Assembly (NCBI GenBank): GCA_900316685.1
Contig: ONDS01000010.1
Coordinates: 1 to 64,000 of the forward strand
DNA length: 64,000 bases
Reading direction: 5' to 3'
Origin: an uncultured Prevotellaceae bacterium
GTDB lineage: Bacteria; Bacteroidota; Bacteroidia; Bacteroidales; Bacteroidaceae
A program made the position numbers and the translations under genes. Shown in pieces: positions 36,941 through 53,663 of the stretch. The stretch's first letter is position 1. Each line of letters begins with the position of its first letter. The notes under the pieces are model-generated. The model was not told the origin of the DNA, ran no database searches, and was given only the letters and a program-made list of their open reading frames with translations.

Positions 36941-38254
36941 ATGGAATGGCTTAACAACATCATCTCCTTCCTGAAAAAGGATATGTGGCTTCTCGACGAT
37001 GAGAAACTGCCTTGGTGGAAAAATGCTCTTATCAAGACTGCCAAGGTCGTCATACTCACCGCCAAGGCGTTCATCTCCAACAACCTTTTCCGTATGGCGG
37101 CGGCGCTCACTTATTCCACGCTGTTGGCCATCGTGCCCATAGCAGCTGTCATCTTCGCCGTGGCAAGGGGCTTCGGATTCTCCATCTATATCGAGGAGTG
37201 GTTCCGCGATGCGCTGGAGTCTCAACCGCAAGTGGCGGAATCCATCATCGGATTCGTCAACTCTTACCTCGTGCATGCACAAAGTGGCATCATATTGGGC
37301 GTGGGATTGGTATTCATGTTATGGACCGTCATCATGCTGACAACCAACATTGAAGAGGCGTTCAACGATATATGGAAAGTTGGCAAGACAAGGTCATGGT
37401 CACACGCCATCATCAACTATACGGCGGTGTTCTTCCTCTTGCCCATCGTCATCATCGTAACCTCTGGTGTGTCAGTGGTCTTCGCTACCATCTCCGACGG
37501 ACTGAAGGAAATCATCTTTGTGGCTCCTATTATTAAGGTGCTTGTAGGGCTTGTGCCCTATGTCATCTGGTCGCTGGTCTTTATACTGCTCTATGTATTC
37601 ATGCCCAACACTAAGGTGATGTGGAAACACGCCATCATACCGGGCATTGTGGCGGGCGTGGCCATGCAACTGCTCCAACTCTTCTATATACACTCACAGA
37701 TATGGGTGTCGAGCTATAACGCCATCTATGGTTCTTTCGCGGCTCTTCCGCTCTTCATGCTCTGGTTGCAGATTTCTTGGACCATCTGTCTCGTCGGGGC
37801 GCAGATGTGCTATGTCAGCCAAAACCTCAAGGATATGGCGTTCGACCACGACATCAGGGAGATAAGTCATCATCACCAGGTCATCATGGCTGCTCTACTG
37901 CTCAGCATCATTTGCAAGAAACATTTCAAGGGGGAGAAGGCATGCTCGGTGCGACAACTCAAAGAACTCTCCGGGCTGCCCATGACCGTCACTGCCGAAC
38001 TGTTGCAACGACTGCATGATACCGGACTTATCAATGTATGTGGTGAATACAAGGAGGAGAACACCGTATACCAGCCTTCGATGGGTACCAATAATATCTC
38101 GCTCGGATTGATGGTCGAGCGACTGGAGTCCAACGGCAAATGGAAACCTAAGGTGCTGGTGGCACAACTCAATGGCAAACTGTGGAGAAAGGTCTACCAG
38201 ATAAGAAAGGAATATGGCGACAATCTGAAAACAATCCTCGTCAGGGATTTGTAA
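36941..38254 (+). CDS. YihY/BrkB-family inner-membrane protein
   Basis: 437 residues. Six hydrophobic segments (about 48-75, 105-125, 145-170, 190-212, 222-245, 262-285) form the YihY membrane domain with motifs RMAAALTYSTLLAIVPIAAV and YNAIYGSFAALPLFMLWLQ. The C-terminal ~130 residues form a soluble winged-helix-like part (VRQLKELSGLPMTVTAELLQRL) found in Bacteroidota members. Transport function is suspected in the family but unproven. The stop overlaps the convergent gene below by 14 bases. Confidence 0.85.
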   Translation: MEWLNNIISFLKKDMWLLDDEKLPWWKNALIKTAKVVILTAKAFISNNLFRMAAALTYSTLLAIVPIAAVIFAVARGFGFSIYIEEWFRDALESQPQVAESIIGFVNSYLVHAQSGIILGVGLVFMLWTVIMLTTNIEEAFNDIWKVGKTRSWSHAIINYTAVFFLLPIVIIVTSGVSVVFATISDGLKEIIFVAPIIKVLVGLVPYVIWSLVFILLYVFMPNTKVMWKHAIIPGIVAGVAMQLLQLFYIHSQIWVSSYNAIYGSFAALPLFMLWLQISWTICLVGAQMCYVSQNLKDMAFDHDIREISHHHQVIMAALLLSIICKKHFKGEKACSVRQLKELSGLPMTVTAELLQRLHDTGLINVCGEYKEENTVYQPSMGTNNISLGLMVERLESNGKWKPKVLVAQLNGKLWRKVYQIRKEYGDNLKTILVRDL

Positions 38255-38636
38255 ACTTCAATACTGCATCCACGAATCGGGCGGCACCCGATTCCCGTAA
38301 CTTGCGCTCTTCCTGCTTCCTTCGCCAGGTCTGGAAGAGGTAATACATCAGGCACAACACGGCACCGATGCCCAAACCGATGAACAGGTATTTCTCGTCG
38401 CCTGGAAACATGGAGAACACCACCACGGGCATAATCAAGATCAAACCATAAAGCGTGTAGGTCTTCTTCGCCTTTTCCATCGGATCATCAATAATCTTCT
38501 GGTCGAAGAAATAATCATTCAACTCGTCTTCGTCGATGTCGTAATCCGACAACTTCGGGAAACCGGGTTCTTCGGCGTGTTGTTTCATGATTTCCTTCAC
38601 GCGCTCTTCCAATTGTTCTATGCTCTTGTCTACCAT
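38241..38636 (-). CDS. Small membrane protein of unknown function
   Basis: 131 residues from the ATG at 38636, downstream of a promoter that excludes the longer frame to 38681. An acidic N-terminal coil (about 1-50), two transmembrane helices (about 68-85 and 90-108) and a basic tail. Resembles conserved Bacteroidales hypothetical proteins with no known role. Its 3' end overlaps YihY by 14 bases in convergent orientation. Confidence 0.65.
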   Translation of the reverse strand: MVDKSIEQLEERVKEIMKQHAEEPGFPKLSDYDIDEDELNDYFFDQKIIDDPMEKAKKTYTLYGLILIMPVVVFSMFPGDEKYLFIGLGIGAVLCLMYYLFQTWRRKQEERKLRESGAARFVDAVLKFTNP

Positions 38637-38651
38637 AAACAAAACTTTTTG

Positions 38652-38682
38652 CAAAGATAGTGCAAGTTGAGTGAAGAACAAA
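38652..38682 (-). promoter_or_regulatory. Promoter of the small membrane-protein gene, in the first repeat copy
   Basis: On the minus strand TTTG (38679-38682), 19-bp spacer, TATCTTTG (38652-38659), then the ATG at 38636. Both elements fall in the first unit of the tandem array that follows. Confidence 0.65.
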
Positions 38683-38921
38683 AAGAATCTATTCTTTTTT
38701 TATTCCGAAACGCCGCCTATATTATCTAAAGATAGTGCAAGTTGAGTGAAGAACAAAAAGAATCCCATTCTTTTTTTATTCCGAAACGCCGCCTATCTTA
38801 TCTAAAGATAGTGCAAGTTGAGTGAAGAACAAAAAGAATCCTATTCTTTTTTTATTCCGAAACGCCGCCTATCTTATCTAAAGATAGTGCAAGTTGAGTG
38901 AAGAACAAAAAGAATCCCATT
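38653..38921. repeat. 75-76-bp tandem array carrying promoter sequence
   Basis: Units begin at 38653, 38728, 38804 and 38880 (spacing 75, 76, 76), the last partial. Each unit holds the -33 TTTG and the spacer of the promoter above, but only the first has the intact -7 (TATCTTTG); the others read TATCTTTA. An aaaagaat/attctttt dyad is inside each unit. Confidence 0.85.
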
Positions 38922-38924
38922 CCA

Positions 38925-39010
38925 GTCCCCCTCCTGCATAATGGAGGGGTTAGGGGATGTCACTTTTCCAAGGCAAGCTAACTTCTCCCTCCTTCAGGAA
39001 GGGCTGGGGT
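38925..39010. repeat. Dispersed ccctcc/ggagggg repeat
   Basis: Two palindromic C/G-rich blocks (ccccctcctgcataatggagggg; ctccctccttcaggaaggg followed by gggtggg) of the same style as those at 55434-55645. They separate the array above from the YkvA promoter. Confidence 0.5.
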
Positions 39011-42533: not shown

Positions 42534-43508
42534 TTATAATGCATATACTAATGATACTTCCATTTTTGTTGGTCCTTCAAGGAAAAGAGAATCCTTTAAT
42601 TTTAAATCAAATTTGTCAATGCATTCATTAAGCTTTTTATCATCATCCAAGCACGAGGGATCTGACAAACCACACAGTGTTTCAATTACTTTTGTTAGAG
42701 TTTTGCCATGAAATTCGCTAACTGATGATACTAAATCTAGCGAACCATACGCTGTTAAAACTATTTTCTTTGATGAACGCAGTTGGGGCCAGTATTCATT
42801 TCTGATAGTGTCAATGATGCTTTGAAGTCGCTCTTCAAAATTGGCACCTTTTCCTTCGATACGAATTTCATATACGCATTCTTCATCATAGAGGTATTTC
42901 AGGTCGTAGTAGTCAATAGATAACAGACCATACATCTGCAAAATACCACACACAACTGTATCTATGTTTTTCCATACATAGGGCCATGGGCCTTGGCATG
43001 CATTATACTCTGCTATGGCGGCATCTCTCTCTTCGTCAATCCAACGGTCAATCTTTTCCCAATTTTCCTCAGAGAGCTTGCCTGACTGATGAAGTTCACA
43101 AAGTGCACTAATGTTATCATAGAAGCCACGTTTCTTGCACTTTTCGAGATATGAGATAGTCTTGCCTTTGAATGCCGCGTAGGCGATTTCCCGTCTAGTA
43201 CTATCCCCTATATAGCCTCCCACGTTGATGACAAAGATTTCGTCTGCCAAGTCTATCTTTGCCAGATGCTGGCGTTCAAGCATGTCTTTATTATCTTCTG
43301 TCCATACCACCTCATCACCAGAGTGGTTAAATAGGCCAACGCTAATAACAATATTGCCTTCGAGGGTCAGGCGCTTTTGGGCTTCCAGGAATTCATTCTT
43401 GAAGCGAGTGCTACCACAGAGGGTTATGACCTTAAATTCATTGATTATGTCTCTCCCTTTCTTTACAGCATTTTGTAACTGTTCTTTTTTTGTTTTCATA
43501 CTCTGCAT
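42534..43508 (-). CDS. Modular protein: shared leader, nucleoside deoxyribosyltransferase-like domain, FtsZ-C-like domain
   Basis: 324 residues. 1-22: leader (MQSMKT, then AVKKGRD) shared with the gene at 44473-46224. 26-122: Rossmann-like nucleoside 2-deoxyribosyltransferase/SLOG-type fold with LCGSTRFKNEF near 30 and DEIFVINVGGYIGDSTRREI near 89-108. 185-324: GLLSIDYYDLKYL followed by alternating strands and helices to KMEVSLVYAL, which aligns with the C-terminal domain of the neighbour and with the FtsZ C-terminal domain (GLINVDFADV start). Deoxyribosyltransferase folds serve as nucleotide-degrading effectors in other conflict systems; that role here is inference. Probably co-transcribed with the gene at 43569 (gap 60 bases). 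Confidence 0.6.
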   Translation of the reverse strand: MQSMKTKKEQLQNAVKKGRDIINEFKVITLCGSTRFKNEFLEAQKRLTLEGNIVISVGLFNHSGDEVVWTEDNKDMLERQHLAKIDLADEIFVINVGGYIGDSTRREIAYAAFKGKTISYLEKCKKRGFYDNISALCELHQSGKLSEENWEKIDRWIDEERDAAIAEYNACQGPWPYVWKNIDTVVCGILQMYGLLSIDYYDLKYLYDEECVYEIRIEGKGANFEERLQSIIDTIRNEYWPQLRSSKKIVLTAYGSLDLVSSVSEFHGKTLTKVIETLCGLSDPSCLDDDKKLNECIDKFDLKLKDSLFLEGPTKMEVSLVYAL

Positions 43509-43568
43509 GTTTTATTTTCCGTAAAGATGCTTACTCCTAATATTATATTATTTGATTTAGATGAATAT

Positions 43569-44102
43569 CTATGATAGAATTTCTGATTTAAGCTGTTTGG
43601 CTCGATTCTCAACTATTTTATTCCACAATTGTGAATCCTGTATTTTCGACATAGGGATATGTTCTTTGTATTTCTCATAAAAATCAATAGCATCAAATAA
43701 GTCGTTTTGGATTTCGCTATGATAATAATGTCCTTCGCCTATCAAGACAGCCCAGTCCACATAGTCGATATATTTATCAATAAGACTTGACGAGATAAGA
43801 AGATCAGACGAACTAATCTCTGTCCAATCCCATTTGTCTTTGAATATTTCCAAATGTGCTTCAGTAAACCAGTCTTCGTCAATATGTTCAGAAAGAACTT
43901 TCCAATCAATCTTTTTGGCAAATTTTTGAAGCATAGGTATCGTCCAGTTAATGTTTCTGTTACCTGAAATAACCTTCCAGTCAACTTTTTCGAAATACTT
44001 TTCCAATAGGGACTCTGTCCACGGAAATTCTTCTGACAGATTCTTCCATGCTTGTTCTGTAGCAACTTGCTGCATAAACTCGTCATTCAGTGATTTTGTC
44101 AT
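43569..44102 (-). CDS. Tryptophan-repeat protein
   Basis: 177 residues; after a 25-residue start it holds four degenerate repeats of about 23-25 residues with the pattern W-T-x3-L-x2-K-(Y/F)-x2-K-(V/I)-D-W-x-x-(I/L)-S (for example LLEKYFEKVDWKVISGN and MLQKFAKKIDWKVLSEH). Repeats of this kind should stack as short helices into a binding surface. Acidic, no signal peptide. Its promoter (-7 at 44150-44157) carries the island dyad. A partner or sensor for the neighbouring modular protein is a guess. Confidence 0.6.
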   Translation of the reverse strand: MTKSLNDEFMQQVATEQAWKNLSEEFPWTESLLEKYFEKVDWKVISGNRNINWTIPMLQKFAKKIDWKVLSEHIDEDWFTEAHLEIFKDKWDWTEISSSDLLISSSLIDKYIDYVDWAVLIGEGHYYHSEIQNDLFDAIDFYEKYKEHIPMSKIQDSQLWNKIVENRAKQLKSEILS

Positions 44103-44472: not shown

Positions 44473-46224
44473 TTATTGTAATAACACAATTGCTCGTAGT
44501 TCTAGTTTGGATTGAGGAGCCATACCCCAAACTATCTCATAATCATCTGGTACAGACTCAAACCATTCACTAAATGGTTGCAGTTCCTCCATCAGTAAAG
44601 GTTGGTTTTCAGGGAAGAAGAAAAACACCAGAGCATGATCGTATGGTTCAAAATGCTTTGAGTTTCTCATTAACTGAGCCTTCAACAATGTCATCCTGTT
44701 CTCCTTACATGCATCTACAGATACATCATAGACATGGATATCTCCTCCTTCCTGAAACAAATGTATCACATCGTCAACATCTATGCTTATAAGACCTTTA
44801 GGCGCATTGAGTACATCCATAATACAACGTTTAACCTTTTCACGTTCCTCTTGCAACGTAACCTTTTCGTCAATGAGGGTGTAAACTCGTTTTAGGACTT
44901 CTGATCCTATTTTTGTGTTAAACTCTTCTGGAAACTCATTCTTCAGCCTTGCCAGGAATACGGAGAGATATATCCGACCAGCATAATGTGCTTTGCTCGG
45001 CAAAGCCTTTTTGGCCTTTCTTTTGAATAAAGTGTTCCAGATACGATTCAGCTCATTCTTTTTGAAACCATTATCCATCCCTTGATGCAAGTAGAATTGT
45101 TTCAGCTTTTCTGCTTCACGTTTCTTTTTAGCATCCGCTAACATCATTACGTCGGCTGTTTGTTTCCATGAGAGCCCGGCACAGTCATGAAGGAACCATG
45201 CAGCATCCTCTCTATATACTAATCCCCAAGGAAACCTTGCCTTTCCCAAAATGGTGATGATGCCATGTCTTTGCTGATATTCAGCAACAGCCTTTTTGTT
45301 GTTAAGTATTTCTCCTAAACCAAATAATCCCTGTATATCGAGTAGATTGTTGAATGCACCATACTCTTCTGTTGTCATTTGCATCATTATCTTGGTCATT
45401 TCTTGAATACTATTGTAGTCGAACAAAGGAATATCATTCAACTCCCCTTCATAGAAAAGGCGATAGTCTTCATGCCATATCGATGTTTCATACAATTTAG
45501 GGACTTCCTTCCCGTTATTCGCTTTCCGTTCCTGAATCCCTTTTATCTTTGAAAGACTTGTGGATTGTAAGATGTTGAATCGGAAAACCCTTGTGTTGTC
45601 GCACTCTTCGATAAATTCTTTAGTACATAGTATCTTATTGCCATCTTTGTCTTTAACTACATCTGTGGCAAAATGATTGCCGACACCATTTGGACAGATC
45701 AATAGGGCACAACAATGTAAATACACCTCCTCACCATTATTCTTATATCCTATATCATCATGGAAATCCAAATGGAGCTTACCATCTGTCTTTACAGGCA
45801 TTCTGGCTACATTTTCAAATCCATACAAACGAATTGCCTTTTGAAATACTATGGAAAACGAATCTTCATCCACCTCAATGCTAATTGTTGGATTACAGTT
45901 GTCATCACACCATACCAAAATAGGGCTAATATCGATATCGTTTGGGCTGACATTTGTAATCCCTAAAGTATAGCAGACATGTGAACTGATCATCCAGTCC
46001 CACCCTGGACCAATAAGGATGTTCTCACATTTCTTTAGTTCTGTCACAAGTTGGTGTGCCGCCCAAAAGTATCCCTCTAATTGTCTGCTCTCGATGAATG
46101 TGAGTTCTTGCTCAAGAATTAGCCTGCTTGTTCCTCCATCTCCTTCAAGTTGATTTCCAATCTTGTCCCTTCCTTTCTTTACGGCATCTCGTAACTCTTC
46201 AATTTCTGTTTTCATACTCTGCAT
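44473..46224 (-). CDS. Modular protein: shared leader, inactive DnaE-like polymerase core, FtsZ-C-like domain
   Basis: 583 residues from MQSMKT at 46224; the longer frame to 46281 runs through a dyad copy at 46255-46272 and is rejected. 51-145: matches the Pol III alpha palm (GYF..., then LIGPGWDWMISSHVCYTLGI where DnaE has GPGRGSAAGSLVAYALGI). The catalytic PDFDxD is replaced by PTISIE, so both metal-binding Asp are gone. 212-300 and 320-435 follow the DnaE thumb/fingers (RFNILQSTSL; GLVYREDAAWF; GLSWKQTADVM; KAHYAGRIYLSVFLARLKNEFPEEF read in parts). The PHP and beta-binding domains are absent. 470-583: FtsZ-C-like (GLISIDVDDVIHLF ... EIVWGMAPQSKLELRAIVLL). A dead polymerase joined to a tubulin-family domain suggests decoy, scaffold or sensor. 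Confidence 0.65.
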   Translation of the reverse strand: MQSMKTEIEELRDAVKKGRDKIGNQLEGDGGTSRLILEQELTFIESRQLEGYFWAAHQLVTELKKCENILIGPGWDWMISSHVCYTLGITNVSPNDIDISPILVWCDDNCNPTISIEVDEDSFSIVFQKAIRLYGFENVARMPVKTDGKLHLDFHDDIGYKNNGEEVYLHCCALLICPNGVGNHFATDVVKDKDGNKILCTKEFIEECDNTRVFRFNILQSTSLSKIKGIQERKANNGKEVPKLYETSIWHEDYRLFYEGELNDIPLFDYNSIQEMTKIMMQMTTEEYGAFNNLLDIQGLFGLGEILNNKKAVAEYQQRHGIITILGKARFPWGLVYREDAAWFLHDCAGLSWKQTADVMMLADAKKKREAEKLKQFYLHQGMDNGFKKNELNRIWNTLFKRKAKKALPSKAHYAGRIYLSVFLARLKNEFPEEFNTKIGSEVLKRVYTLIDEKVTLQEEREKVKRCIMDVLNAPKGLISIDVDDVIHLFQEGGDIHVYDVSVDACKENRMTLLKAQLMRNSKHFEPYDHALVFFFFPENQPLLMEELQPFSEWFESVPDDYEIVWGMAPQSKLELRAIVLLQ

Positions 46225-46274: not shown

Positions 46275-46328
46275 TGAACAACTAAATACAAATTCTGAGA
46301 TTCTACTATTCACAATGCAAAGAAAATG

Positions 46329-46452: not shown

Positions 46453-46965
46453 TTATTTAATGGGGTCAGAGCAGAATTCTCTTCGTTTGCAGATCTTGCA
46501 ATGCTTCCCCATCCATACTTCATCGAACAGGTTCATTGCTTGGTTGACGATTTCCGGATCATCTGTCAGGATGCCCGCTTCGAAGTTCCGTTTATCATCA
46601 TTCTTCATGCCGATACCTGCACCGGTAAGGTTCGCGCTGCCAACATACACCTCTTTTCCGTCAAACACAATCATCTTGAAATGCACTCGCGGACAAAGCA
46701 CCCGTTCCAAACCGTCAAACAGAGCAGGGTACTTGTCGAAGTCCTCCCTGAAGTTCGGCCCCGGCTCTTTCGCGTGAATCAGCCTAACCTCCACACCACG
46801 CCGAATAAGTTGTGCCAGGATTGCTAACAACGGCTTCACCTCTCCATCAACCTCCATATAAAGGTCCTTGATGTCAGCCGTCCCAATCCAAAGCATGTAC
46901 TTCACGGACAGCACCCGTGAAAGCACTTCTTTATAATGGTCGGAGTTGGAGATGTAGGTCAGCAT
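46453..46965 (-). CDS. PLD-like (HKD) nuclease domain protein
   Basis: 170 residues with one phospholipase D motif: HFKMIVFDGKEVYVGSANLTG near 96-116 gives His-x-Lys-x4-Asp and GSAN. One HKD motif per chain means a dimer forms the site, as in small nucleases such as Nuc. N-terminal LSRVLSVKYMLWIGTADIKDL is the usual opening strand. Ends with four Cys/His residues (HCKICKRREFC) that may bind metal. It stands 19 bases after the DUF262 gene on the same strand, so it may be its nuclease partner. Confidence 0.75.
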   Translation of the reverse strand: MLTYISNSDHYKEVLSRVLSVKYMLWIGTADIKDLYMEVDGEVKPLLAILAQLIRRGVEVRLIHAKEPGPNFREDFDKYPALFDGLERVLCPRVHFKMIVFDGKEVYVGSANLTGAGIGMKNDDKRNFEAGILTDDPEIVNQAMNLFDEVWMGKHCKICKRREFCSDPIK

Positions 46966-46984: not shown

Positions 46985-49384
46985 TCATTTTTTCACTTCA
47001 GCGATGAGGCTGTCAAGTTTGTCTATGAGTTCTTTGCAAGAATCCATATACGTGACATCCACAAAATAAAACTCATCCTCTCTTTTTAGCTTTCTTTTCC
47101 CTTCCTCCAATAAATATACCTTTTCATCTGTGTTCCATTGAAAAGTGTGGTCGTTATACTCGAATTTTATGTCCCAACCTTTATAATAATTCAAATCTTC
47201 GATTCTTTGGTCCGAGTTGATTCTACGATCCGAAGAAATAATACGGTTTCTATAGAATTTCTTGTCACGGTTTTCGTCATCTAGAATAATACCTTCATAA
47301 TATGGAGGATAAATTGCCCTATGGTCGTGTATCCATTTTATTCTGGATCCAACCATTTTATTTGCAACATAATTTAACAAATTTGTATTGTATAAATTTC
47401 TATAAATCAAACAATCGTTCTCTCGAGGTTCTATATCAAGATTGCCTATCAATATTTGATGCACAGCGTTTTCCCAACCTTTTTCTAATAAAATATTTGA
47501 TTTCCAAGTTTCCGCCTTATTGTCAAATACATACTTTTGGGGTTCAATATATGTCCAAAAATCTTGCACATTATATAATACTGCTTTTAGAAGGAGCGCT
47601 TCTGTTCTATATTTTTTTTCGTCATCTTTAACGCCCTTCTCATCAAAGTATTTCTTTGCATTTCTCAATTTTGTATCAAATACTTCCTCGTTCCAATCAT
47701 TTTCACCTTTCTCATTAGTGAATAAGAATCGGATGGCTCCTTTGAAGAATGCACTCTTTTCTGCTTCTATAATAATACTATCCCATGACTGACCATCAGC
47801 ACGTGGAGAATCATTATGAATTTTGTTCGCTTTAGCGATTTCTTCTTTCATTTGTTCTTGAGCATGATATTGTTTCCCAAGGTCAAAGACTTCAAAATGA
47901 TTGGCCAATGCATCGTAGATGTTATAACATTTTGTCGATAGTTTATTTATTAAACGCAAGGCCGAGTGATATGTGTCTGGACTATCAATAGTAGAGTTTT
48001 CTATTATGTTCCATACAACGCGCATCCATCGTGCTAAAGATGTATTGTCTTCATTATCCTCATAGAAATAGCTCAATAAGGCATAAAAAGCCACGCGAGA
48101 AGGGTAGGTTTCCCTATTACTATTGTTTTTCTCTCCAGTATATAAATTCCACGATTCCTTTTCTCTATTCCAAACTGCTTGACAATCTCTTTTTATGCTA
48201 TTTTCTTCGTATAACTTATCCCATATGTTGAATATCGGATTCAAACATTCATTTACGCCACATTTGTCTAATACATATTGATAAATGTCCCACGAAACAA
48301 AATCGTCTTTTGTAGGATATAGAAGCATCTCCGCAACAATCTTTTGATTGAAATTGTCGAGTTCTTTTTGTTTTTCAATATCTTCGTTTAACAAAGTTTT
48401 TCTTCCAGTATCCGATTTCGTATTTAGACTATACCAGCATCTCCAGACATTCATGAAATGTCTATTGATAAAACTCAACATCATCGTATCTGGCAATTCT
48501 TTTTTTTCACTTCCATTCGAGTTAATAACGTTATAAAACAAATCCAACCACATTCCATCAATACCTGTATATTGCTTCCGAACTTCGTCATAGAAACCTC
48601 TGAAACGTTTCAACAATTCAGCGCATACATTTCTTTTCTTTTCATTATCATTATTCTTTTTCCCATTTTCAAGGTATTGTTCCAGACTTGCCTTGAAGTT
48701 TTCAAACGGAGTCAATGTTTTACCACGGGCGTTCATCTTTACATAGGTTTCATCAGAAAGTTTGTGCTCACCCATATCAACGAAATGAAAAGTGATGGGA
48801 CAACTGCATCCACTCGTCAGCTTTTCAGCCGACAATTTAAAGTTTATGTCTTTAGAATGCAACTGATTGTGTATTTCGTCAAGCATTGTCAGCATTCCCA
48901 TAATGGTGGGGTCTTTTTCCCAATCGGAATAAAACCACGATTGATTTTTTACATTTTCCGACAACTTTCCTAGTTCTGGAACTACATTTTCCTCAACAAT
49001 TTTTTCACAAAACTCACGTGATGATTGACGCGTAGTGTACGAAAATCTGTTCAGTATATCTCTACATATGCATTTTTCTTTGTATTTACAATTGGAACAT
49101 GATTGACATTTCTCAAACACATATTTATGAAACAAGAACAATGTCGTGAGACGCTGTTGTCCATCAAAAGGAATAAACTTATTCCCGTCAATACGACCAT
49201 ATATAAAGTCAAAGAACAACGGCTCATAGTCGGTAGTAACTGCCTTTATCATATTTGCAACCATTGACTTACGTACATCTTCCGCGTGGGTATTATTCCT
49301 GCCTTGGGCATAATCACGCTGAATAATAGGTATTTCAATCTGATATTTACTAATCAGTTGATAGAAAGAATATATGTCGTTCAT
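46985..49384 (-). CDS. DUF262 (GmrS-like) protein, long
   Basis: 799 residues. N-terminal DUF262 domain: YQIEIPIIQRDYAQGR near 14-29 and IPFDGQQRLTTLFLFH near 71-86, the ParB-like NTPase signature of GmrSD-type systems; VKMNARGKTLTPFENFKASL near 220 is the second family motif. A cysteine cluster (93, 96, 99, 105, 107) follows and may bind zinc. The C-terminal 500 residues are not recognised and lack a clear DUF1524 His-Asn-His site. The stop of the second DUF262 gene is one base upstream, so both are made together. Confidence 0.8.
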   Translation of the reverse strand: MNDIYSFYQLISKYQIEIPIIQRDYAQGRNNTHAEDVRKSMVANMIKAVTTDYEPLFFDFIYGRIDGNKFIPFDGQQRLTTLFLFHKYVFEKCQSCSNCKYKEKCICRDILNRFSYTTRQSSREFCEKIVEENVVPELGKLSENVKNQSWFYSDWEKDPTIMGMLTMLDEIHNQLHSKDINFKLSAEKLTSGCSCPITFHFVDMGEHKLSDETYVKMNARGKTLTPFENFKASLEQYLENGKKNNDNEKKRNVCAELLKRFRGFYDEVRKQYTGIDGMWLDLFYNVINSNGSEKKELPDTMMLSFINRHFMNVWRCWYSLNTKSDTGRKTLLNEDIEKQKELDNFNQKIVAEMLLYPTKDDFVSWDIYQYVLDKCGVNECLNPIFNIWDKLYEENSIKRDCQAVWNREKESWNLYTGEKNNSNRETYPSRVAFYALLSYFYEDNEDNTSLARWMRVVWNIIENSTIDSPDTYHSALRLINKLSTKCYNIYDALANHFEVFDLGKQYHAQEQMKEEIAKANKIHNDSPRADGQSWDSIIIEAEKSAFFKGAIRFLFTNEKGENDWNEEVFDTKLRNAKKYFDEKGVKDDEKKYRTEALLLKAVLYNVQDFWTYIEPQKYVFDNKAETWKSNILLEKGWENAVHQILIGNLDIEPRENDCLIYRNLYNTNLLNYVANKMVGSRIKWIHDHRAIYPPYYEGIILDDENRDKKFYRNRIISSDRRINSDQRIEDLNYYKGWDIKFEYNDHTFQWNTDEKVYLLEEGKRKLKREDEFYFVDVTYMDSCKELIDKLDSLIAEVKK

Positions 49385-49385
49385 T

Positions 49386-51239
49386 TTACACCTCCTTTGT
49401 TTTTAATCCATAGATATTGATATTATTGTTTAAATCTGGAACAATGGCCTCCAATCCCAAATAGGCTGCAATCACTTTCATCATTACTGAAACGTACTCT
49501 AAACCAGCTTGTTTATCCCAAATCAAAGGATTTGTTGAGTTTGGTGAGTAATGTTTAAAAAATACATTTCTTGTGCAAATCGGGACAAACATAGATTCTT
49601 TTTCAACATTCTCATATTCAGCCAATTTTTCTCTCTTTTCAGGATATGTTTTATTGTTAAAAGCTGCATTTTTATCTCCTTGCAAAAGAGCCATATTTGT
49701 AAGATGGTCATCTTTCTCAAATTCTTTTGTTAAAGCAAAACCTTCATCATTTTTCTTTATGTCAATGCCCATAAGTGCACCTATAACGGTTTTATAGACC
49801 TTCTCTTTCTTAATAGTCTCCAAAGAAAGCGTTTTAGAAAACTCAATAGCAACATCACTACCTTTTATAAACCTACATTGGCTAACATAATACTTCATTT
49901 TTTCAATTTCATCGTCCTCCCATTTTTCCTTGCGTTTCTCATTCTGTGCATGTATATGTTCCAATGACCATTTCTTTTCTGCAGCTTTATAATGTATATC
50001 AAATGGATATCGTGACATTTCGCTGATCTGATTTTGAATTGTAGCAAGATTGAACAACAACAAAATGTTATGTATTTCATCGTTGTTCTTTCCATATTCC
50101 AAACAATCAAAATATATTTCTCTCTTACTTTGGGTTATGGAGTTTCTACAATTCTCTTTAATAAATTCAAGAAAAACATCTTTGGGCTTATAAGATTCAC
50201 ACAACAACTCCTTTAATGTTTCTTTTTTATTCTTTCCTCGTAAATTCATTAGATAACCAATGTAATGATATTTCTCTCTATCATCATACCACGATTTAAT
50301 TGTTCGAAAAAAGTTCTGTATTGTCTTCCATTGGCTTTTCCAACCATCAGTTCTAATAAGTTCCGAATACTTTGAGAAGATGAAATAGTCATTCTTTTGT
50401 AATTCAGATTGTACATCAAATAGATATTTATTGTTTTCTTTGGCACAATGTAAAATAAGTTCTAAAAGGAAATCAATTCTTGTGCAGTTGAAACGAGCAT
50501 CTTTTGGCTCGGGATTGATAAAAAACCAAAATGAATCATCATGAAGAGTTTGTTCCATACGGTCCCATTCTCCTGCCATTTCCAACTGTTTCAAGCGAAG
50601 GGCATCTTCATTCAAATCCGTAAAGTTGTCGTCCTTTAGCAACAAAGCCTTTACTAGTTCAGCGTTACTTAATGATATTTTGCCAGAATTAAGGCGTTTG
50701 AACACATTGTAGGCGTTATCATTAGTTTCGTACCAAATGACTTTACAGTTGTCTTTGAGTTTTTTCACAACTCCAAACTTATCGCCATCCCATTTGTTGA
50801 TTGTCACTTTTGCTTCATGCATAAAATGAAAATCAATGTTTGAATCATCTAGATTCTCATCTTTAATACTACTCAAGAATATCTCACTAGTAGGACGAGT
50901 TTGATATTTCAACGATAATTTGTTGCTATTCTCTATCATGTTTAGGATGATAAAAATAGTTGTCAACCTTTGTTGACCATCAATAACCTCGTACCAGTCT
51001 TCATTATCCAATAAGTTACATTCTTTCTTTCTGTCAGAATTCATCTTAGAAACAACTAATGGCTGCAAGCAATACCACGTTTCGCCATAAGATTTTTTTT
51101 CAGGTTTAAACTCATTTACATCATTCAACAAATCTTTAACCTGTTGTTCCGTCCATCGATACCCTCGCTGGTAAGACGGTATAAAAAACTTCAATCCAAG
51201 AAGCTCACTAACATTCTTTAATGATATGTTATTTTCCAT
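49386..51239 (-). CDS. DUF262/DUF1524 (GmrSD-like) protein
   Basis: 617 residues. DUF262 opening FFIPSYQRGYRWTEQQV near 18-34, DGQQRLTTIFII near 87-98 and FKRLNSGKISLSNAELVKAL near 178. A DUF1524-like His box is seen in WSLEHIHAQNEK near 425, the nuclease centre of GmrSD. GmrSD enzymes cut DNA with modified bases, as in phages. Adjacent DUF262 proteins of two types occur together in defence islands. Codon use is more A/T-rich than the flanking housekeeping genes, which fits transfer. Confidence 0.82.
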   Translation of the reverse strand: MENNISLKNVSELLGLKFFIPSYQRGYRWTEQQVKDLLNDVNEFKPEKKSYGETWYCLQPLVVSKMNSDRKKECNLLDNEDWYEVIDGQQRLTTIFIILNMIENSNKLSLKYQTRPTSEIFLSSIKDENLDDSNIDFHFMHEAKVTINKWDGDKFGVVKKLKDNCKVIWYETNDNAYNVFKRLNSGKISLSNAELVKALLLKDDNFTDLNEDALRLKQLEMAGEWDRMEQTLHDDSFWFFINPEPKDARFNCTRIDFLLELILHCAKENNKYLFDVQSELQKNDYFIFSKYSELIRTDGWKSQWKTIQNFFRTIKSWYDDREKYHYIGYLMNLRGKNKKETLKELLCESYKPKDVFLEFIKENCRNSITQSKREIYFDCLEYGKNNDEIHNILLLFNLATIQNQISEMSRYPFDIHYKAAEKKWSLEHIHAQNEKRKEKWEDDEIEKMKYYVSQCRFIKGSDVAIEFSKTLSLETIKKEKVYKTVIGALMGIDIKKNDEGFALTKEFEKDDHLTNMALLQGDKNAAFNNKTYPEKREKLAEYENVEKESMFVPICTRNVFFKHYSPNSTNPLIWDKQAGLEYVSVMMKVIAAYLGLEAIVPDLNNNINIYGLKTKEV

Positions 51240-51307: not shown

Positions 51308-51775
51308 CTACTTTTTAAGCCTCTTCACCAAACTGACAATCTCCTCACATAGGGCTTCTTCTGAGACAGGTTTGTAGAAGAGATTATCCTGTTTGTAGTC
51401 GGGTACTAATGATGAAATCATCTTCCGGTATGTGAGTTGATTCCTATCAACTTTGAAGTCGAAATATATCCTACTTGAGAAACACATGATAATAGTTATG
51501 GTTGCTTCTTCAAAAGCAAAGGACAAATTTCCATTCTTGTCAAGTGGATTTTTATAGCCCATATTGTTAAGGGCCAGAAGAATTTTGTCTTGTATTTCAT
51601 TATGGTGTTCATTTTCAATCTCGTCCTTTCTTTCCTTGACATCATTTAAAAGAGCATTTAACTCTTCAATGGCTGCGTTAATGTTGTCCTCCCTATCATT
51701 AAGGTATTCTATTTGTTCCTCGTAGGACAAGCCATCCATTTCTTCGTTAATATCGATAATATCATAGTCTATCAT
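51308..51775 (-). CDS. Small coiled-coil protein of unknown function
   Basis: 155 residues. An acidic coiled coil (about 18-65: YEEQIEYLNDREDNINAAIEE and onward), then a small alpha/beta part (FAFEEATITIIMCFSSRIYFDFKVD). No family recognised. It precedes the two DUF262 genes by 68 bases on the same strand. A -7 candidate TATATTTG is at 51932-51939. Confidence 0.55.
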   Translation of the reverse strand: MIDYDIIDINEEMDGLSYEEQIEYLNDREDNINAAIEELNALLNDVKERKDEIENEHHNEIQDKILLALNNMGYKNPLDKNGNLSFAFEEATITIIMCFSSRIYFDFKVDRNQLTYRKMISSLVPDYKQDNLFYKPVSEEALCEEIVSLVKRLKK

Positions 51776-52163: not shown

Positions 52164-52655
52164 TTACAATATTTCCCTCGCTATCCACGCACAAGCCTCT
52201 GCATCGGCAAGAGCATGGTGATGGTTTTCCAACTCATAGCCGCAGGCAGCAGCCACAGTCTGCAGCTGATGGTTCTTCAAGTAAGGAAGTGCCAATCGTG
52301 AAGCACAAAGCGTATCGTAGAATTCATAATCGGGATAATCCATCTGATAAACACGGAACACGGCCTTCAGGCAGCTTTCATCGAAAAGCTTGTTGTGTGC
52401 AACTAGCGGCAAGCCTTCAATTAACGGTTCTATCATAGCCCATACCTCGGGGAAGACGGGTGCCTCCTCTGTATCCGCACGTGTCAGTCCATGCACCTGC
52501 GAGCACCAATAGTTATAATAGTTCGGCTCTGGTTGGATGAGTGAGTAGAACGTTTCTATTGTCTCACCGTCACGCACGATGACAATTCCTACAGAGCAAA
52601 CCGATGACCGCTCATTGTTAGACGTCTCAAAATCTATAGCTGCAAAATCTCTCAT
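52164..52655 (-). CDS. DEDDh 3'-5' exonuclease
   Basis: 163 residues. Exo I motif FAAIDFETSN near 4-13 (Asp and Glu), Exo II in LVAHNKLFDESCL near 90-102 (His, Asp), Exo III HHALADAEACAWIA near 145-158 (His, Asp). All four acidic residues and the His are present. A stand-alone DnaQ-like exonuclease on DNA or RNA. It lies 48 bases after the WYL regulator and may be in its operon, so it may serve the island. Confidence 0.88.
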   Translation of the reverse strand: MRDFAAIDFETSNNERSSVCSVGIVIVRDGETIETFYSLIQPEPNYYNYWCSQVHGLTRADTEEAPVFPEVWAMIEPLIEGLPLVAHNKLFDESCLKAVFRVYQMDYPDYEFYDTLCASRLALPYLKNHQLQTVAAACGYELENHHHALADAEACAWIAREIL

Positions 52656-52703: not shown

Positions 52704-53663
52704 TCAAACGAGTTTGTTCTTGTTCTCGTTGGCACTATATTTGTTCCACATACGCTCTACGATATCACCGATTTCCTTACGCAGCCAGAGAGGCTCCAGC
52801 ACTTCCACATCCTCACCGTTCCAGAGGACCTCTTGAATGAAATCAAACGTAGGTCGCAGATAATATTGGAAGATGCTGTATTCGTCATTACGTACTATCT
52901 CTTCCTGCGATTCGTGCATCTTCAGGTCGCGGATGTAGTTGGCTTGACCTGCCGACACCTTTAACTTTACCGTCTGGATGTCGGTACGTTGGTCGGCAAT
53001 GATACCGAAACAACCGTCAAAGAAGTCCTTGGCTGTCCATTCTTTCGGCATCTCGAATTTCTCATCCGTGGCGTGAAGGTCTACGATGCGGTCGAGCGCA
53101 TAAATCATCGGTCCCTTCTCATAGAAATAGGGATAGGTATTGCGTGCCACCATGTACCATCGCTGACGGAACAGTTTTACACAGTAGGGCTGAACATCGA
53201 AACTCTTTTCTTCGGCTCTCCAATAACTGTGGTAGGTGATGTTCAGGACATTGTTATCCTTCATGGCCTCAAGGATGGGCTTCAGGTGTTCCTGTCCTGA
53301 CGGGACATATTCCAATATGATGCGGTCTTTGATGCTCTGGCTGTTCGACAGGGCATTGCTCACGCAGAATGTGTTGTAGAGCCAGGAACGCAGTCCGTTC
53401 TTCTTGATGTTATCCTCGTTCTCGATATAGTAACGGTACTCGCCACGGTTCTCGTTGACAATGCTGATGCCAAACATGTCCCAGATGGCATACTTCCAGT
53501 TGTCAAAAGTGCGTTTGGGTAATTCAGCACCTCTGCTGATGTCCGTATCACGCTGCCACAGCTCATTCAGTTTGTTGTATGAAATCTTTCGTCGGTGAAG
53601 AATGGTCTCTATCACCCAAACATATTTATTGACCAAACTTTGCCCTCTGTCGTTGTTTATCAT
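52704..53663 (-). CDS. WYL-domain transcriptional regulator
   Basis: 319 residues. N-terminal winged helix (about 15-75: ILHRRKISYNKLNELW), WYL domain (about 130-205: ITYHSYWRAEEKSFDVQPY, FRQRWYMVARN) and the C-terminal WCX region (about 220-305, ending IGDIVERMWNKY). WYL proteins control defence systems and DNA-damage responses and bind nucleic-acid ligands. Its own promoter carries the island dyad (53732-53744), which predicts autoregulation and control of the modular genes. Confidence 0.85.
   Translation of the reverse strand: MINNDRGQSLVNKYVWVIETILHRRKISYNKLNELWQRDTDISRGAELPKRTFDNWKYAIWDMFGISIVNENRGEYRYYIENEDNIKKNGLRSWLYNTFCVSNALSNSQSIKDRIILEYVPSGQEHLKPILEAMKDNNVLNITYHSYWRAEEKSFDVQPYCVKLFRQRWYMVARNTYPYFYEKGPMIYALDRIVDLHATDEKFEMPKEWTAKDFFDGCFGIIADQRTDIQTVKLKVSAGQANYIRDLKMHESQEEIVRNDEYSIFQYYLRPTFDFIQEVLWNGEDVEVLEPLWLRKEIGDIVERMWNKYSANENKNKLV

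Follow-up and report, generated by a model that had tools for sequence, protein, structure and literature searches.

A putative pseudo-polymerase core of DNA polymerase III alpha fused to an FtsZ C-terminal-type domain in a defence-type island of an uncultured Prevotellaceae bacterium

P0001, a protein of 583 amino acids encoded on the minus strand at positions 44473..46224 of the window, a stretch of 64,000 nucleotides from an uncultured Prevotellaceae bacterium, is a putative pseudo-polymerase. It combines a predicted dead core of the DNA polymerase III alpha subunit, DnaE, with an FtsZ C-terminal-type domain, as judged from its open reading frame, Pfam and alignment. The core appears to have lost metal binding, the thumb, the PHP domain and the parts that bind the replisome, and the predicted fold agrees with this assignment. 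The reading frame is confirmed from an ATG start at 46224 down to 44473; a longer form would start at a TTG at 46281, and in the alignment the three relatives set in at residue 4 of the form that begins with ATG. Residues 1–437 (44914..46224, minus strand) make up the DnaE-like part, with palm and fingers from residue 37 onwards, as found by Pfam, PDB, NCBIfam, hhalign and the structure model. Residues 464–583 (44476..44835, minus strand) make up the FtsZ-type domain.

The DnaE-like part is a homologue of the DnaE palm-fingers core. PF07733, the Pol III alpha palm domain of Pfam, matches P0001 with an E-value of 4.6e-9 and 36.7 bits against a cut-off of 23.9. DnaE models of NCBIfam match it with E-values down to 1.4e-11, six of the nine models having at least two passing stretches, and TIGR00594 gives 3.8e-11, yet stays far under its whole-protein cut-off. 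With P0001 as a single-sequence query, the DnaE chains 5lew and 7pu7 of the PDB are matched at 2.6e-6 and 4.9e-6. In a profile-profile comparison by hhalign, the four members of the family and a set of active DnaEs align colinearly along 402 columns (E = 5e-25); one reversed and five column-shuffled controls gave 0.14–0.44. In P0001 the match is colinear over residues 37–437, so that the order from palm to fingers originally noticed for residues of about 51–435 is borne out. Identity to DnaE is about 21% over the longest stretch and 28–34% in the palm strand. A structure model guided by DnaE rows has the palm-fingers fold of Pol III, so that a fold other than a Pol III palm, named beforehand as a refutation, did not turn up. 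All its strong matches among known folds are to Pol III alpha or to entries with DNA polymerase as their title; a two-sequence structure prediction was uninformative (pLDDT 33.7).

All three catalytic aspartates of DnaE are replaced in P0001. The glycine-rich strand GPGRGSAAGS reads GPGWDWMISS at residues 72–81, and the metal-binding motif, PDIDID in DnaE, reads PTISIE at residues 112–117 (45874..45891, minus strand); both changes had been noticed beforehand, and both stand in the alignment. The exchange of GPGR for GPGW (residues 72–75; 46000..46011, minus strand) places a tryptophan, W75 in P0001, in all four members, and GPGW..M is the sole part of the GPGWDWM motif that they have in common. 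The first catalytic Asp (D401 in E. coli) is Thr in all four (T113 in P0001). The second position is occupied by Ser (S115 in P0001), Thr, Asp or Asn; the aspartate is lost in three members and kept in the relative of locus L035 (PTIDIEV). The third, in FDFLGL of DnaE, is Asn in all four (N217 in P0001; 45574..45576, minus strand), a loss not noticed before. Homologues had been thought able to settle whether the aspartates are truly lost, and their alignment finds the first and third gone from every member.

Active DnaEs are invariant in 38 columns that are occupied by three or more of the dead rows. The dead rows keep the residue in 12 of these columns and have switched to another fixed residue in 8, including those of the first and third catalytic Asp and of the Asp two places past the second. 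In 149 columns the dead clade has a single residue where active DnaEs vary. A new fixed role would be expected to leave such a pattern, although common descent (four members on a long stem) inflates the count. The diverged relative of locus L044 is left out of the comparison of the 38 columns and of the profile of active DnaEs. No PHP domain is matched by Pfam in P0001, and just 36 residues precede the core. The DnaE stretches 494–511, 530–541 and 559–583, presumably the thumb, have no counterpart in the alignment of any of the four members, and beyond residue 437 P0001 continues into the FtsZ-like domain instead of OB, tau-binding or clamp-binding regions. The missing PHP, OB and beta-clamp regions had thus been recognised correctly. 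The suggestion of a conserved fold without activity finds support at the sequence level in relatives lacking at least two of the three catalytic aspartates and in purifying selection in one pair.

P0001 ends in an FtsZ C-domain that has the T7 loop. Residues 445–583 align with stand-alone proteins of sister loci, mostly of 125–155 residues, and a profile built from these tails and that of P0001 matches eight FtsZ proteins from six genomes, namely related ones and that of P0001 itself (hhalign probability 97.2%, E = 3.1e-11). The T7-loop motif DVDD (D482 and D485; 44770..44781, minus strand) aligns with DFxD of FtsZ. Its second Asp is kept in 14 of 15 sequences (P0001 and 13 of 14 stand-alone domains) and its first in 11 of 15 (P0001 and 10 of 14); these counts derive from 16 rows minus one fragment and one DUF6557 row without both aspartates, and include the near-copies L013 and L014. 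PF12327 (FtsZ_C) reports nothing in P0001 at E ≤ 1 in Pfam or at E ≤ 10 in the genome search, and the FtsZ GTPase domain with its GGGTGTG motif is absent by sequence and by Pfam. The proposed coupling to a tubulin-family domain therefore holds for P0001, but is confined to the C-terminal domain of FtsZ, fused to one of the four dead cores. DUF6557 proteins end in a tail of this kind too (E = 2e-9), and the neighbour at 42534–43508 shows a weak match to it (1.7e-5); four unrelated island families used as controls gave 0.013–0.66. A zinc-peptidase-like protein of L101 was rejected as a carrier, its E-value of 0.016 being at control level. Another locus, L097:12409-13560, has both FtsZ halves as separate short genes: a truncated GTPase part, which contains GGGTGTG, and beside it an FtsZ-C-type reading frame. 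Full-length extra FtsZ copies are found in genome G586 (a second) and in G461 (a second and a third), the latter genome being possibly contaminated (5%).

Relatives of P0001 were searched at E ≤ 1e-12 in overlapping samples of 399 family, 398 genus and 384 order genomes. Relatives of the DnaE-like part with open frames occur in three other genomes at 54–55% identity to P0001: 357 residues in G315 (L004 = L017), 439 in G409 (L035) and 437 in G601 (L036). The first of these is without about 75 palm residues. In G197 (L012) the tail of the core alone directly precedes a separate FtsZ-C-type gene, and the 384 genomes of the order sample hold no dead-core relative except in the genome of P0001 itself. 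Further matches are FtsZ-type domains, in G124, G038, G148 and G297 of the family sample and in G586, G461, G517, G569 and G399 of the genus sample, or DnaEs without the features of the dead clade (G648, G744, G445, G572 and G767). The four dead cores form one clade in the tree with a support of 100/100, on a very long stem of 3.3 changes per site. The dN/dS ratio is 0.17 for L035 and L036, the sole unsaturated pair of dead cores, and therefore the dead-core family appears to be maintained. The FtsZ-type domains of P0001 and L012, compared with each other, give a ratio of 0.20–0.25, and four pairs of short DnaEs give 0.13–0.20; values for the DnaE part of P0001 are not used because synonymous sites are saturated or undefined in all three pairs. 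Pattern scans of viral contigs with P0001 gave 14 and 294 pattern matches, none of them a confirmed relative. By tblastn, P0001 has weak matches in 21 phage records (4e-5 or worse among the matches listed) and in 4 plasmid records (2e-5 or worse), and the features listed for them are DNA polymerases where annotated.

The gene for P0001 follows a WYL-domain regulator (52704..53663; Pfam, PADLOC), an exonuclease of the RNase_T family (52164..52655; Pfam), two GmrSD-type genes and a PLD protein, all on the minus strand. The GmrSD-type genes encode a protein with GmrSD_N and GmrSD_C (49386..51239; Pfam, PADLOC) and one with GmrSD_N, or DUF262 (46985..49384; Pfam). The PLD-type nuclease-like protein is DrmC-like (46453..46965; Pfam, PADLOC) and serves here as the island marker. 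A small protein at 51308..51775, also on the minus strand, belongs to no Pfam family above cut-off. PADLOC models match three of these neighbours below 1e-9 (WYL, PLD and one GmrSD protein); the second GmrSD gene has no match, and P0001 itself hits none of the families at E ≤ 1. On the other side of P0001, again on the minus strand, lie a small repeat protein (43569..44102), with further occurrences in sister islands and, judged by eye, on plasmid pE2-28, and a gene at 42534..43508 without a Pfam match, whose N-terminal part resembles, by eye, a nucleoside 2-deoxyribosyltransferase and whose C-terminal part is the weak FtsZ-C-type domain. The 66-nt 5' end of P0001 (46164..46229, minus strand) is 86% identical to 43448-43513 of this deoxyribosyltransferase-like gene. 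From the common 5' end and the FtsZ-type tails, the two genes look like one chassis with different middles. A promoter pattern, TTTG-N17-23-TAnnTTTG, occurs ten times in the window against 1.6 expected, with no occurrence between the PLD gene and P0001. Elsewhere, at 38653-38928, four copies of a unit with a period of 75–76 nt lie beside a gene at 38241-38681.

Additional relatives of replication and division proteins, most of them shortened, are found in sister islands. The PLD protein is found in 51 of 398 genus genomes (E ≤ 1e-30), and 20 PLD-anchored places with identities of 78–87% were compared, longer contigs being preferred. An exonuclease is present in 13 of them and a WYL gene in 9. 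At least one relative of DnaE, DnaA, DnaB, FtsK or the FtsZ GTPase part occurs in 8; the other 12 are without such relatives in the stretch seen, several stretches stopping at contig ends. E-values are 2.7e-48 for the DnaA AAA+ part, 1.2e-34 for the FtsK motor, 4.3e-18 for the FtsZ GTPase part and 7.7e-14 for DnaB_C, and L037 has a GyrB-type ATPase part (1.4e-15). Partial DnaE relatives are present in L095 (141 residues) and L100 (383 residues), and DnaB also in L035 and L016. The DnaB of L035 may be active, since it falls little short of the full length and scores above the DnaB cut-off. In the stretches L101:10953-18564, L098:7659-9192 and L100:9732-10529 there are short DnaA AAA+ proteins, of which L101 has two; L101 also has an FtsK motor, and L098 a DnaB C-part. 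Walker A motifs are kept in all nine DnaA, DnaB and FtsK copies looked at. One sister-island DnaA copy matches TIGR03420, the Hda model, at 8.3e-27 and the DnaA model at 4.5e-76.

That the copies are additional was checked for DnaA, FtsK and GyrB and, in G409, for DnaB. G462, G644 and G705 have one full DnaA each plus 1, 1 and 2 short ones (open frames of 261–293). G409 has DnaB open frames of 502 (island) and 527, G586 has GyrB/ParE open frames of 662 and 647 plus 359 (island), and G705 has FtsK open frames of 826 and 837 plus 310 (island), with one weak match. The genome of P0001 has one DnaA, one DnaB, two GyrB/ParE, one FtsK with one weak FtsK-like match, and one FtsZ. Directly next to the dead core stand a gene of family c4 in L035 and L036 and one of family c8 in L036 and L017; DUF6557 and deoxyribosyltransferase-like genes lie near it in L035 and L036. 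Families c4, c8 and c15 were rejected as hidden replication copies, with a best E-value of 0.013 against seven replication and division profiles, and DUF6557 is linked to these profiles only via its FtsZ-like tail. Several genes of other islands are fragments.

Short DnaEs of sister loci keep all three catalytic aspartates in six of six aligned sequences. A short island DnaE is matched in 10 of 396 genus genomes (E ≤ 1e-250); one of the ten, in G735 (open frame of 1199, 48%), is an ordinary DnaE, leaving nine. PLD, exonuclease, WYL or GmrSD genes are present along with it in seven of the nine fetched stretches. In G744 it stands at a contig start next to an SprT-like gene, and in G749 alone among ordinary genes. 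A phage origin of the sister-island DnaE finds no support: of the phage records that one short DnaE matches, 1369 in all, 1368 are below 60% identity, and one record falls in the 60–80% band, outside the ten matches listed. The best of these ten, an unverified faecal clone at 47.7%, groups with chromosomal DnaEs in the tree and is no closer to the short DnaE than is one of the ordinary DnaEs of the genus (48%). As a sign of lost DNA binding, the net charge of the core was discarded. It ranges from -8 to +3 in the four dead cores and from -3 to +4 in 11 short DnaEs, and is -5 in the chromosomal core; the values overlap and are therefore uninformative on DNA binding. The diverged DnaE relative of 656 residues at L044:6063-8033 has a different N-terminus where PHP would be, and its neighbours are WYL, exonuclease and PLD genes. 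The IMG/VR contig L108 (IMGVR_UViG_3300028886_003644) carries an island of the same type, with WYL, exonuclease, McrBC-like and short DnaE genes, near a portal-like phage gene (names by eye).

Because the family is kept by selection though apparently dead, we strongly infer that it works via binding and not via synthesis. Of the roles first proposed, decoy, primer-end binder and regulator of replication, that of primer-end binder would be the least likely, since P0001 has neither the thumb nor the GPGR strand. We tentatively favour, at somewhat less than even odds, P0001 as a binding-only mimic that acts as a decoy or sensor in defence. It is a cargo of a WYL-linked, restriction-type island. 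As a decoy or sensor it would imitate the replication and division machinery that proteins of phages or other invaders attack in the host, and it would either absorb the attackers or pass a signal to effectors encoded nearby, for example the PLD and GmrSD proteins. The defence context and the spread of targets argue for a decoy. However, the surface recognised by an attacker of DnaE must be much changed, because identity to DnaE is so low, and the kept Walker A motifs of the DnaA, DnaB and FtsK copies and the kept catalytic aspartates of the short DnaEs suit acting proteins as well as decoys. The 12 PLD-anchored islands without relatives in the stretch seen and the lack of a PADLOC match for P0001 also speak against it. 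Decoys in bacterial defence have been published (PMC12409349), though the passages concerned are not about replication proteins. A broader version, which we hold to be possible but doubtful, is that Prevotella islands carry modular look-alikes (DnaE, DnaA, DnaB, GyrB, FtsK and FtsZ), intact or dead, that bait phage host-takeover proteins, P0001 being two look-alikes merged.

Hardly less likely than a decoy or sensor is that P0001 is a brake on the host machinery, a poison subunit or regulator holding division and DNA copying during infection. FtsZ uses the two T7-loop aspartates on its neighbour, and the FtsZ-type domain could cap FtsZ filaments because it offers the T7 loop but is not joined to a GTPase domain; the DnaE-like part could add a second contact. 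The retained T7-loop aspartates, the nucleotide motifs kept in the shortened DnaA, DnaB and FtsK copies, and the association of DnaE core and FtsZ domain, fused in P0001 and adjacent as separate genes in L012, favour such a brake. It would have a parallel in Hda, a relative of the DnaA AAA+ part that inactivates DnaA. However, the alpha subunit meets the exonuclease, tau and the clamp via PHP and the C-terminus, and because both are lost, little is left for poisoning the replisome; the FtsZ domain, moreover, is on just one of the four dead cores. An unlikely role is that of a scaffold in a small complex of island proteins (c4, DUF6557, c8 and the deoxyribosyltransferase-like protein), in which the old polymerase fold would hold nucleotide, nucleic acid or a partner, as ImuB is thought to do. 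The genes concerned adjoin or neighbour dead cores, and the FtsZ-C-type domain common to P0001, the DUF6557 proteins and, weakly, the deoxyribosyltransferase-like neighbour may therefore be a common assembly domain, but c4, c8 and c15 show no link to the seven profiles and DUF6557 is linked by its tail only. That P0001 is a decaying polymerase copy without function is very improbable. The palm residues missing from L004/L017, the bare core tail of L012 and the fragments in other islands would fit decay, but four open frames of 357–583 codons, the low dN/dS ratio, and GPGW, PTI.IE and N217 invariant at 54–55% identity to P0001 argue against it.

Compared with DnaE, a C-family polymerase, P0001 lacks the catalytic triad, GPGR, thumb, PHP, OB and clamp- and tau-binding parts; with FtsZ it shares the C-terminal profile match and the T7-loop aspartates, but neither the GTPase domain nor a report by PF12327. 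ImuB is a dead Y-family polymerase thought to hold DnaE2. P0001 resembles it and other inactive polymerases in a polymerase fold apparently kept for binding, but is of the C family and lies in a defence-type island. Hda is a shortened replication-protein relative, comparable with the DnaA copies of sister islands and not with P0001. GmrSD and DISARM/PLD-type defence genes are neighbours of P0001, which itself has no PADLOC match. We know of no inactive copies of replicative C-family polymerases, and searches of open-access literature outside bioRxiv, some with narrow queries, found nothing on a dead DnaE or on such islands. With ImuB, the use of an inactive polymerase for binding is already a known idea; a C-family case fused to an FtsZ domain, amid islands that carry copies of replication and division proteins, was not found in these searches, which does not prove that there is none.

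If the island does collect copies of core replication and division proteins, this would point to a means by which infected bacteria guard their most essential machines or bring them to a halt. Each copy may then name the target of some phage protein's attack. Prevotella sp. E2-28 is a named isolate and a good starting point at the bench. On its plasmid pE2-28 (L109), genes for AAA, FtsZ-type, AAA, hypothetical, M48, DnaE and repeat proteins stand in a row.
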